A stretch of 64,000 nt of DNA, taken from the NCBI GenBank assembly GCA_947490345.1, contig CANLGL010000020.1, forward strand, positions 18,360 through 82,359. Reading direction: 5' to 3'. This document shows, one piece after another, positions 22,032 through 25,868 of the stretch; positions within the stretch are counted from its first letter, which is position 1, and every line of letters begins with the position of its first letter. The notes beneath the pieces were generated by a model. It was not told the DNA's origin and did no database searches. It saw only the letters and a program-made list of their open reading frames with translations. Both the position numbers and the translations under genes were made by a program. Source of the stretch: Deltaproteobacteria bacterium (GTDB lineage: Bacteria > Myxococcota_A > UBA796 > SXON01).

Positions 22032-22934
22032 TCAGATCCGATCCACCTCCGCGACCTCGAAGACACAGTCCGCGTCATCGCCGACGGCCTCGGTGAGGGC
22101 CAGGCTGTCGCTCTGGAAGGTGAGCCGCCCGGTGCGGCCCCAGCACTGGCTCCACGACCACACCGTCTCGCCGAAGCCGCCGCCGGCCACCTGCGCGTCC
22201 GAGCGTCCACCGGTGCCCGGAATCCAGCGGTCACGCACGGTGATCGTGGCCAATTCGTCGCTTCCGTCGTCGGCGAGGTCCGAGACGGTGCGGTACTGGA
22301 AGTCGCCGAGCGTGTCGGTCCGGGTGTAGGCGTAGGTCCAGTCAGTGGGCTCGCCGCCGTCGAGGCTCAGGTCCTCGACCAGCACCAGCAGGTCGACGCC
22401 GTCGCGGTTGTCGTAGTCGACGGTGACGAGCCCGCTCTCGTCGAGGCCGCACCACCCCGCCCAACGGCGGTGATCCCACACAAAACTCCCGTCACCGCCC
22501 GCTACCGTCTCCCCGGAAAAATGGGTGCCGTACAGCACGGTGGCGTCCTCCCCCTCGCCCGGGTGGCCTGACACACTCCACTGATACACGCCGAACTCTC
22601 GCGACATCAACAGCGACGCGGACACCCCACAGTCGCCGTCGTAAGGACCCCAACGCCGTGTGTCGTCGCCGCGCTCGGTCGGCGGCAGCTCGCGCACCCG
22701 CTCGACGAGCCCGAGCGTACCGAGGACAAACCCATTGACCTGCGACGCGATCGCCACCGAAAGCTCGACGAGATCGGCCCGCTCGCCGAGTCCGCGGGCC
22801 GCCGCGTCCGTGGTGTCGTCGCCGAAGCCGACAGTCTGGCGTCCTTCGTCGGGCAAGGCGGCGAGGAAGTTGGCGTCGTCGTCGAAAGTGGCGTTGCTCA
22901 CGTCACCGCACGCAGCGAGAAGGAGGAAGATCAT
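22032..22934 (-). CDS. Hypothetical lipoprotein, last gene of the caspase operon
   Basis: MIFLLLAACGDVSN lipobox; ATG 2 bp after the caspase stop codon. Confidence 0.75.
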   Translation of the reverse strand: MIFLLLAACGDVSNATFDDDANFLAALPDEGRQTVGFGDDTTDAAARGLGERADLVELSVAIASQVNGFVLGTLGLVERVRELPPTERGDDTRRWGPYDGDCGVSASLLMSREFGVYQWSVSGHPGEGEDATVLYGTHFSGETVAGGDGSFVWDHRRWAGWCGLDESGLVTVDYDNRDGVDLLVLVEDLSLDGGEPTDWTYAYTRTDTLGDFQYRTVSDLADDGSDELATITVRDRWIPGTGGRSDAQVAGGGFGETVWSWSQCWGRTGRLTFQSDSLALTEAVGDDADCVFEVAEVDRI

Positions 22935-22936
22935 GG

Positions 22937-24517
22937 TCAAAACCGATACCCCAGTCCGAGAAGCAGCTCGGAGAAGCCCATGCCATTGTCGCGACCGTCC
23001 ACCACATAGGGGAGGTAGTGGACACGAAGTTGTACGTCGATCTCGAATTGTCCTGGGTGGAGGCCGAGCCATCCCACGATCCCCGGCGCCACCGAAAAGA
23101 GTTCCTGGTCCTCGACCCCGCCGTCGGGAAAGCGCCGCCGCAACCAGAAGCCCTGGAGATGGAGCCCGCCGCCCGCCTGGACGATGAACTCCGGCGTCCG
23201 CCAGCCGGCGCCGACCCCGAAGGTGGCCGAATCGAGGTCCACATCCACCGGATACCCGAGACCGTCGATCGCCAGGGTCCCCTGTCCGCTCCCGGCCAAG
23301 AAGTCCATCGAGACATACTTCCCGTCGCGCCAGCCGAAGCGCCCTTCAAGACCGGCCGCGCCCGTGGTCGGAAAGTAGGCGGCCTGGATGGTCGGGTCCG
23401 AGAAGCTCCGCCCGCCCACCAGCAAGTGCAGCGCCAGCTTCGGACGCTTGGCGTCGCGGATGCTCTTGTCGATCGACCCCTTGGCGATGTCGTCCTCGTA
23501 CTCGCCGTCCCGAAAGCGCGTCGAATCGACGGTGACGACCGCCCGTGCCGCCAACTGGATCTCCGCCACGGACAGGTGCGTCGGCAACCGCTCCTGGACC
23601 AGGTAGCGCCCCGGTCGCAGCGCGATGCGTCGGTCAAAGACCGTCACTTCCACTTGCGACACGAACATGCGTCGGTCGACGTCGAAGACCGCGAACGTGC
23701 CCGGATTGCTGCCCGGCAGGTGCAGGGTGCCGGTGCCCGATCGGCCCAACTCCGTGACCACCACCTCCCCATTGGCGTTGAGGTCCCAGTCCTGAGTGGG
23801 GTGCTGCGTGCCGGAGCGGGTCGCGGACGTCCGGTAGACGGTCTCGTGGTAGACGTACCGATAGGCCTCGGACAGGGTCACCCGCGAATCGCCGTCGTCG
23901 TCGGCACCCCCGGACAGGCCCGAGGCCAAGAAGTGGGTGAAGTAGGAGCCGCCGATCTCGTCGGACTCCTGGCTGGCTTCGTCGCCACCGCTGCTGGTGA
24001 CGATCACCGAACCGCGGGCGTCCAGCCGCTCTTCCAGGTCGAACGCGAAGGTCGGCGCCCGGGTGCCGCCCTTGCGCCGGGTCATGCTTCCCGACTGACA
24101 CGCATCAACGAACGCGACCCGAACGTCGGCGCCGCTCTTGTCCAAAAGTGCGGTCAGCTCCGCCCAGGTGACGCTGGTTCGACCGAGGTGCAACGCCGTC
24201 TCGTCGGCGTGCCCCGAGTAGAAGAAGTAGAGCACCGTCTGGTTCCCGTTCTGCCGGGACCCGGCGATCGGTCCTTGCAGCTCCGCCATGCTGCGCAGCA
24301 GCTCGGCGCGACCCTTCCCATACAGCGACCGCGTGTTCAACAGTGAGACGCCGCCAAGTTCGGTGAGGACACCCTGCATCTTTCGTGCGTCCTGCTCGGC
24401 GAAGTAGAGCGCAGCGTCCCCGATCGCCCCTTCGTTGTTGCCCACGACCACCGCGAAGCGTTGGACGTCGGCGTGGGCGAACGTCGCGCCAAGGACGATG
24501 GCGAGGGCACCGATCAA
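22937..24517 (-). CDS. Caspase-like (C14) peptidase with PEGA-like linker and C-terminal outer-membrane-barrel-like domain
   Basis: Signal peptide; FAVVVGNNEG; catalytic YFFYSGHAD (His) and VAFVDACQSGS (Cys); C-terminal alternating beta pattern ending GLGYRF. Confidence 0.88.
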   Translation of the reverse strand: MIGALAIVLGATFAHADVQRFAVVVGNNEGAIGDAALYFAEQDARKMQGVLTELGGVSLLNTRSLYGKGRAELLRSMAELQGPIAGSRQNGNQTVLYFFYSGHADETALHLGRTSVTWAELTALLDKSGADVRVAFVDACQSGSMTRRKGGTRAPTFAFDLEERLDARGSVIVTSSGGDEASQESDEIGGSYFTHFLASGLSGGADDDGDSRVTLSEAYRYVYHETVYRTSATRSGTQHPTQDWDLNANGEVVVTELGRSGTGTLHLPGSNPGTFAVFDVDRRMFVSQVEVTVFDRRIALRPGRYLVQERLPTHLSVAEIQLAARAVVTVDSTRFRDGEYEDDIAKGSIDKSIRDAKRPKLALHLLVGGRSFSDPTIQAAYFPTTGAAGLEGRFGWRDGKYVSMDFLAGSGQGTLAIDGLGYPVDVDLDSATFGVGAGWRTPEFIVQAGGGLHLQGFWLRRRFPDGGVEDQELFSVAPGIVGWLGLHPGQFEIDVQLRVHYLPYVVDGRDNGMGFSELLLGLGYRF

Positions 24518-25254
24518 GGCTTGTCCAAAACCAGGATCGCGACGTCAGCCCGGGCGGCGTCCAAGGCGACCAGACCCTCCACCCCCGACTCCTCGTAGAT
24601 CGCCGCGACTTCGGCCCGGACCACGTCGGCGTCGGCTCCCGAGAAGCTCGCCACGAAGATCTCCGGACCCGGCGCGTCGTCCAACTGGATGCTGCCGTCG
24701 AGGAACTGGCGTTCACCGGGGGTGATAGCGAAGGGTACGCTCCCCGCTTCGGGCCAGTAGGTCTGCACGGTCCCCGTCCCGTCGACGCCCACGAGCACCA
24801 GCGTGTCGTGAACACCGGCGCGGTAGGAGAAGCGGAGACGGTCCCCGGCGCGCACCTCGAAGGCCGCGTCGCCCTCGAAGGGCTGCCCGTCGCGCAAAAC
24901 CGCGAACCCAAGCTCGGCGTCACCCTTGACGCGGATGCCGTCGCGGGGCGGAGGCTTGACGATCAGCAACAGGGCAGCGGCCAACGCAAGGCCGCCGCCG
25001 ATCCACGGCGCGACCCGCCGAAACAGCGGCACGACCTGGCCCGCAGCGCGCGTCGGCCGGCCCTCCGACGGGGCGTCCGCGAGGGAGCGCAGGGCGGCGA
25101 TGTCCAACGCCGGTGGCCGAGCCGCCGCCACTTCGGCGCGCCACGCCGCCGTGGCGGGGTGCGCGGCGTGGTCAGCCGGAAGCGGCGCCTCCCCGGAGAG
25201 CTCCCGCCCGATCGCCAGGCGTGACGGACGGCTCCCATCGTTGAGCCGGCTCAT
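24514..25254 (-). CDS. Single-pass membrane protein, anti-sigma/DUF4384-like
   Basis: Cytosolic N-terminus, TM APWIGGGLALAAALLLIV, outer domain with DRLRFSYRAGVHDTLVLVGVDGTGTVQTYWPEAG; 4-bp overlaps with sigma and caspase genes. Confidence 0.7.
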   Translation of the reverse strand: MSRLNDGSRPSRLAIGRELSGEAPLPADHAAHPATAAWRAEVAAARPPALDIAALRSLADAPSEGRPTRAAGQVVPLFRRVAPWIGGGLALAAALLLIVKPPPRDGIRVKGDAELGFAVLRDGQPFEGDAAFEVRAGDRLRFSYRAGVHDTLVLVGVDGTGTVQTYWPEAGSVPFAITPGERQFLDGSIQLDDAPGPEIFVASFSGADADVVRAEVAAIYEESGVEGLVALDAARADVAILVLDKP

Positions 25255-25868
25255 GGCGCCCCCTGCATCACTTGTAGCGCACACCAGGCGATGCTCGCGC
25301 TGAGCACGGTGAGGCCCAAGGTACGTCGGGAGCGACGCAAGAACTCGTCAAGCCGCTTCCGAAGGGTGGGCACCGAGATCCCCACCAGCACTGCCGTCTC
25401 CTCCCGGGTGAGGTCGTCGAAGAACAGGTGGACCACGATGCGTTGGGTGGTGTCATCTTCCGAGGCCACGAGCGCGCGGATGCGGGCGTCGTCCAGGCGC
25501 TCGTCGTCGGGGGTGACCTCTTCCCGGTGGACGAATTCGCCGCGACGCTCCACGTGTTTGCGGTGGTGGCCACGTTGGTCGCGTAGCCGGTTGAGGCACC
25601 AATTGGTGTTGATCTGGTAGAGCCAGGTCAAGGGCGACGACTCGGAGCGGAAGCCATCGCCGGCGCGGATTACCCGGGCGAAGGTCTCCTGGACCGCATC
25701 GCCAGCTTCCGCGTCATCGCCGAGAATCCCGCGGGCGCGGGCGTGCAGGATCGGGGCGTAGCGCATGTACATCTCACTGAGCTCGGTGTCGGTGATGGCC
25801 ATCGTCCTGGCTTCGACCCCCAAGCGCCGCAGCGCCGAAAGAAAATCGCAATCAACGGATAACCACAT
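25251..25868 (-). CDS. ECF-type RNA polymerase sigma factor
   Basis: ARGILGDDAEAGDAVQETFARVIRAGDGFRSESSPLTWLYQINTNWCLNRLRDQ (region 2) and LTREETAVLVGISVPTLRKRLDEFLRRSRR (region 4). Start may be 25802. Confidence 0.9.
   Translation of the reverse strand: MWLSVDCDFLSALRRLGVEARTMAITDTELSEMYMRYAPILHARARGILGDDAEAGDAVQETFARVIRAGDGFRSESSPLTWLYQINTNWCLNRLRDQRGHHRKHVERRGEFVHREEVTPDDERLDDARIRALVASEDDTTQRIVVHLFFDDLTREETAVLVGISVPTLRKRLDEFLRRSRRTLGLTVLSASIAWCALQVMQGAP

Follow-up and report, generated by a model that had tools for sequence, protein, structure and literature searches.

A conserved cassette of sigma factor, anti-sigma-like protein and exported caspase with a predicted outer-membrane barrel in Myxococcota-type genomes

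Why should a caspase be encoded together with a sigma factor and a membrane protein of the anti-sigma type, and what could it do on a tail that resembles an outer-membrane barrel? This question is raised by four minus-strand genes in a 64,000-nucleotide stretch of DNA, here called the window, from the 5.5 Mb draft genome of Deltaproteobacteria bacterium (GenBank assembly GCA_947490345.1, contig CANLGL010000020.1, positions 18,360 to 82,359; C20 in this analysis). In 5' to 3' order they encode an extracytoplasmic function (ECF) sigma factor, an anti-sigma-like protein, a caspase and a lipoprotein (Table 1). The architecture of this cassette is well supported; together with its conservation, the intact active site of the caspase, a promoter-like motif and a predicted two-locus regulon, it is a computational result. 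In our view the likeliest step in the working of the cassette is that the caspase cuts the anti-sigma protein in a surface signalling circuit resembling the Fec system, a proposal whose chances of being right we judge to be evenly balanced. Re-reading the open reading frames of the window placed all four genes where an initial annotation had put them, with a 2-bp gap between the caspase (to 22937) and the lipoprotein (from 22934). That annotation also described two ATGA overlaps; the one at 25254/25251 stands, but the one at 24517/24514 is TTGA, since the start codon of the caspase is TTG. We have revised the start of the sigma gene from 25868 to the ATG at 25802 (MAITDTEL..., 183 aa), which is likelier because most orthologs begin there and because 25803-25868 holds a conserved promoter-like motif. 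The 4-bp overlap of the sigma and anti-sigma genes recurs in nearly all orthologs, and the gene overlaps and the motif together suggest that the four genes are co-expressed.

The caspase has the signal peptide, the two catalytic motifs (YSGHAD and DACQSGS) and the beta-rich tail with a final Phe which had been noticed earlier. Its head has the C14 fold with a His/Cys dyad: Pfam C14 was found in all 30 orthologs, the dyad residues H103 and C140 as well as D43, S101 and D138 are invariant in 30/30, and the top Foldseek matches of the head are legumain and metacaspase 9. Through the motifs NDA, YSGH and DxCxSG, D43, S101 and D138 align in our mapping with Asp95, Ser156 and Asp211 of the S1 pocket of TbMCA2. 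In clan CD a basic P1 residue is preferred most often, and pockets of this kind are lined by acidic residues (PMC4357240). The conservation of the S1 residues supports the prediction that this enzyme cleaves after Arg or Lys. The NCBIfam model of EACC1-type caspases scored the window caspase far under its cut-off (54 vs 140 bits). The tail was examined in an AlphaFold2 model of 22937..24517 made with 30 orthologs (mean pLDDT 84.9), in which the caspase domain is followed by small beta domains and, within residues 360-525, by eight strands. With Foldseek the tail matched OmpA (2.5e-8), Ail (5.3e-8), OmpX (1.0e-6) and NspA (1.5e-6). The eight strands, these matches and the C-terminal aromatic residue are those of an OmpA-type barrel, for which membrane insertion is predicted, and they support the barrel that had been supposed from the letters of the sequence; Pfam, run over the caspase set, gave C14 plus a weak OMP_b-brl match. 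The PEGA-like linker claimed between head and tail fared less well: beta structure is predicted at residues 253-338, but no Pfam family matched it. In OmpA-type barrels both termini are periplasmic, and therefore the N-terminal caspase domain should face the periplasm.

Could the four genes be neighbours by accident? We collected about 60 loci and built profiles for all four proteins. Caspases matched over their full length were assigned to one ortholog group, and those matched over residues 1 to about 350 were counted as sister caspases with other tails. Of 58 close and order-level relatives, 50 have the caspase. In every barrel-type locus with sufficient flank, the genes for sigma, anti-sigma and caspase-barrel follow one another in this order; the arrangement of all four genes spans six families of the order and is mostly kept beyond it in Myxococcota-type genomes. 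Among the 40 barrel-type loci, 36 have the sigma factor, 39 the anti-sigma protein and 37 the lipoprotein, and a contig edge explains each missing sigma or anti-sigma gene; the neighbourhood of the caspase-barrel gene is thus conserved, as the initial annotation had expected. None of the 21 loci without a match to the barrel profile has the lipoprotein, whereas 18 have the sigma factor and 20 the anti-sigma protein. One locus (L077), with a distant caspase, is the only one to lack both of the latter for a reason other than a contig edge, and in another (L204) the sigma and anti-sigma genes are oriented divergently from the caspase. It follows from these tallies that the unit consists of a sigma factor, an anti-sigma protein and an exported caspase with a variable beta-rich tail; judged by these profiles, barrel and lipoprotein together mark one subtype of it. 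Chance adjacency of unrelated genes is refuted by an order kept in dozens of genomes and by the linked presence of barrel and lipoprotein, and the probability that we leave to it is negligible.

Some observations on related loci may be added. The genome studied holds a second sigma/anti-sigma/caspase cassette without the lipoprotein (G000:C59, L069, 4237-7765), whose anti-sigma N-terminus is of the zinc type and whose caspase tail contains a weak DUF5683-like stretch. L077 (G000:C40) is the third C14 caspase of the same genome and stands alone; neither a sigma nor an anti-sigma gene was found next to it. The sister caspases of L196, L198, L200, L201 and L203-L205 carry long repeats of the G-x-Q-x-A/G-x-x-N type followed by a beta-rich, barrel-like end; a scan of L196 and L201 gave no Pfam family for this part. 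Outside the order, L188 and L192 have an extra gene directly after the operon with two tandem lipoprotein domains.

If the caspase is a protease, what would be its substrate? The product of the second gene has the traits of a class I anti-sigma factor, namely a single transmembrane (TM) helix, a small cytoplasmic domain and an adjacent sigma gene, and is predicted to bind sigma; together with its N-terminal motif, this supports the identity first proposed for it. Pfam matched DUF4384 in 8 of 29 orthologs (best 7.9e-6) and above the cut-off in one of them, L213 (= L062); in the protein of the window the domain was below detection, and Pfam found no DUF4384 in its genome. Neither zf-HC2 nor DUF4880 matched the protein of the window, and one ortholog matched DUF4880 (1.4e-4), which we take to be the N-terminal domain of FecR. 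In several sister cassettes the N-terminus of the anti-sigma protein carries H-x3-C-x2-C, with zf-HC2 above the cut-off in one, L078. The linker between the TM helix and the DUF4384-type domain varies in length among orthologs. Within it, Lys or Arg at position 110 and G111 are kept in 29/29 orthologs and R108 in 22/29, and an R-x-[KR]-[GAS] linker motif is common to most sister cassettes. By eye, six DUF4384 proteins from outside the cassette showed no R-x-[KR]-G ahead of their domain. The caspase itself has R-x-K-G in the loop after its catalytic Cys (R147 in 29/30, K149 and G150 in 30/30 orthologs), at the edge of a low-confidence stretch with AlphaFold2 pLDDT <50 at residues 150-164, and this sequence and that of the anti-sigma linker may be one recognition motif.

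From these features we infer where the proteins would lie, that the anti-sigma protein is cut and at which position, and how the steps would follow one another. The sigma factor and the anti-sigma protein would reside at the inner membrane, the latter with a cytoplasmic N-terminus and a periplasmic DUF4384-type domain, and the C-terminal barrel would anchor the exported caspase in the outer membrane, leaving the caspase domain in the periplasm. The barrel, the lipoprotein or both would sense a change in the outer membrane, and the caspase, activated by this change, would then cut the anti-sigma protein after K110 within R-V-K-G, close to the inner membrane on its periplasmic side. A site-2 protease would complete the process and release sigma, and the freed sigma factor would transcribe its own operon and a distal lipoprotein gene of the same family. 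M50 site-2 proteases are present in this genome, and likewise in all control genomes. The scheme resembles the DegS/RseA/RpoE system in that a periplasmic protease tied to the state of the outer membrane would cut a single-pass anti-sigma protein, followed by a site-2 protease; however, DegS is a serine protease in the inner membrane, whereas here a caspase fold would sit on an outer-membrane barrel.

The likeness to the Fec system lies in the sigma factor, the membrane anti-sigma protein, the outer-membrane barrel with an N-terminal periplasmic domain, the order of the genes and the DUF4880 match of one anti-sigma ortholog. On the other hand, a small OmpA-like barrel takes the place of the TonB-dependent receptor, a caspase domain that of the receptor's signalling domain and, by Pfam, DUF4384 that of the FecR domain in the anti-sigma set. 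We therefore regard it as working like Fec-type signalling and not as a member of it. Is it possible that the caspase domain serves for docking or sensing, as the N-terminal signalling domain does in FecA, and that proteases of the Prc/RseP type do the cutting? The Fec operon has the order fecI-fecR-fecA, and the order found here agrees with such a role; yet H103, C140 and the predicted S1 acids, invariant in 30/30 orthologs, would be needless for mere docking, and we think this explanation improbable. In the Fec system itself, the receptor domain contacts the anti-sigma protein, which is cut by Prc and RseP (PMC9249621).

Which genes would the released sigma factor transcribe? In 21 of 27 orthologs the exact motif TTTC-N17-GGGTC occupies the corresponding position, and the 517,472 strand-bases of those loci contain 22 matches in all. 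Upstream of the sigma gene it was found in 0 of 18 sister cassettes. A GGTGTT-like upstream motif, instead of GGGTC, seems common to the sister cassettes L196, L198, L200, L201 and L204-L206, and each subtype of the cassette may have its own promoter specificity. Searching for a regulon with the motif alone was uninformative, as three genomes gave 33, 31 and 24 matches against 24, 27 and 20 for the reversed control; the first pair of counts is that of the genome studied, where there is no genome-wide enrichment. A signal could be separated from noise only through conservation and a match to lipoprotein genes. Apart from the copy in the operon, this genome has a single gene of the lipoprotein family; just upstream of that gene lies one of the 33 motif matches, and this match is kept in the nearest relative. 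Among 33 distal lipoprotein genes of relatives, 16 are preceded by the exact motif and 28 by a degenerate form of it, where far fewer than one exact motif would be expected for 33 genes from the match density in the genome studied; these sequences are related and not independent, and they span several families. The motif thus predicts a regulon of two loci, the operon and the distal lipoprotein gene, whose neighbours were not clearly conserved in four genomes.

A regulon of this kind can also be read in another way. Perhaps the anti-sigma protein senses envelope stress through its DUF4384-type domain, and the protease and the two lipoproteins are the output, which would remodel, digest or protect the envelope. 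The caspase and the lipoproteins share the promoter-like motif of the sigma factor, and a regulon consisting of envelope proteins only resembles a set of effectors. What this leaves unexplained is that a sigma factor, an anti-sigma protein and an exported caspase occur together in nearly all cassettes with any tail, and that the basic site in the anti-sigma linker is invariant; we see it as a serious possibility, although an unlikely one. That the caspase could be an output rather than a transducer is one of four points which weigh against the cutting of the anti-sigma protein by the caspase. Secondly, the linker domains would have to bridge the periplasmic gap from the outer to the inner membrane. 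Thirdly, type-I metacaspases have S-T-K-G at the equivalent loop, and K-G could be structural. Lastly, a simple release of the sigma factor leaves unexplained its own membrane-like tail.

This tail deserves a comment. The first protein has only regions 2 and 4, the region 4 match being weak, and its matches to Sigma70_r2 and TIGR02937 agree with the ECF identity given to it from the start. A membrane-helix-like tail is present on the sigma factor in 28 of 36 barrel-type loci and in 0 of 18 sister cassettes. Fused membrane extensions occur in other sigma factors (ECF48, ECF52, ECF53 and IutY), where they replace the anti-sigma factor (PMC8999054), whereas the barrel subtype has both a tailed sigma factor and a separate anti-sigma protein.

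The fourth gene encodes a lipoprotein with a lipobox, the Cys9 of which is invariant in 29/29 members. Its AlphaFold2 model (pLDDT 90.1) found no match in the PDB with Foldseek (best E 0.36), and none of the 29 members matched Pfam. The model may represent a new fold.

Table 1. Features of the caspase cassette, in positions of the window
Feature	Position	Strand	Basis or details
Promoter-like motif TTTC-N17-GGGTC	25815..25840	-	conservation; 12 nt before sigma start codon
ECF sigma factor gene, 183 aa	25251..25802	-	Pfam Sigma70_r2 3.1e-16; TIGR02937 1.8e-18, above cut-off
Hydrophobic, membrane-helix-like C-terminal tail of sigma	25266..25322	-	hydropathy
Anti-sigma-like single-pass inner-membrane protein (predicted), 246 aa	24514..25254	-	N-terminal R-P-S-R-L...G-E, one TM helix, DUF4384-type C-terminal domain
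TM helix of anti-sigma-like protein, residues 81-99	24958..25014	-	hydropathy
R-V-K-G, residues 108-111, candidate caspase cut site in predicted periplasmic linker	24922..24933	-	conservation
DUF4384-type domain, predicted periplasmic	24640..24855	-	Pfam matches of orthologs
Caspase with barrel tail, 526 aa, TTG start	22937..24517	-	Peptidase_C14 8.2e-10, above cut-off; AlphaFold2 pLDDT 84.9
Signal peptide, AxA site	24470..24517	-	A14 and A16 at least 90% conserved
Caspase domain	23780..24466	-	dyad H103 (24209-24211), C140 (24098-24100); predicted S1 residues D43, S101, D138
R-R-K-G, residues 147-150, disordered loop after catalytic Cys	24068..24079	-	conservation
Beta-rich linker domains, residues 253-338	23504..23761	-	AlphaFold2
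Predicted eight-stranded outer-membrane barrel, residues 360-525	22943..23440	-	eight strands, block pLDDT mostly 84-96; Foldseek
Lipoprotein, 300 aa	22032..22934	-	lipobox LLAAC, Cys9 at 22908-22910; beta-rich fold

How new is such a system? The initial annotation had called it undescribed, which is too strong. Operons of sigma-70 factors and metacaspases were reported by Asplund-Samuelsson et al. in 2012 from Myxococcus, Anaeromyxobacter, Haliangium, Sorangium, Ralstonia and Fibrobacter, and four of the five metacaspases of M. xanthus were placed in such operons (PMC3501461). The present locus, with a sigma-70 factor and a C14 caspase homolog in one operon, is of this kind; the anti-sigma protein, barrel tail, lipoprotein, promoter, regulon and mechanism that we propose here do not appear in that account, in the part of it drawn on here. 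EACC-caspase systems with a nearby ECF sigma gene, for which the authors propose the caspase as trigger, share the pair of caspase and ECF sigma factor with our cassette, and in the sections of the paper used here neither export nor an outer-membrane barrel is described (PMC8195603). From orthocaspases and type-I metacaspases of C14, with which it shares the caspase fold, the His/Cys dyad and the acidic S1 residues for a basic P1, the protein differs by its outer-membrane barrel tail and its dedicated sigma/anti-sigma pair. For the barrel, the anti-sigma partner, the predicted substrate, the shared motif and the two-locus regulon, open-access full text yielded no previous description; outside it lie many subscription papers and possibly an ECF group with listed caspase neighbours.

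Bacterial caspases have often been discussed in connection with cell death, and the 2012 survey suggests autolysis in Myxococcus (PMC3501461). Programmed cell death or anti-phage defence through the caspase is nevertheless very improbable for this cassette. None of the four proteins had a PADLOC match, the barrel type usually occurs in one copy per genome and is kept across the order, no plasmid matches were found, and export of the caspase to the envelope speaks against such a role as well.

Little is known about what bacterial caspases cut in nature and what they do. This operon by itself suggests a substrate (the anti-sigma protein), a cut site (R-V-K-G), a readout (TTTC-N17-GGGTC) and a small regulon. 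If our proposal that the caspase cuts the anti-sigma protein is true, the caspase fold would be tied to outer-membrane sensing and transcription, not to cell death, and it would be seen how a protease can stand in for the signalling domain of the receptor in circuits of the Fec type. Judging from the sister cassettes, whose beta-rich tails are of other kinds, such sensors may form a modular family. We can extend this, with somewhat less confidence than we place in the cut itself, to a general class of transenvelope signalling in which barrel-mounted outer-membrane caspases are sequence-specific proteases (R-x-K/R-G) dedicated to the anti-sigma proteins of the adjoining genes, different barrels serving different inputs. 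Such a class would give a large group of bacterial caspases a concrete role other than death.

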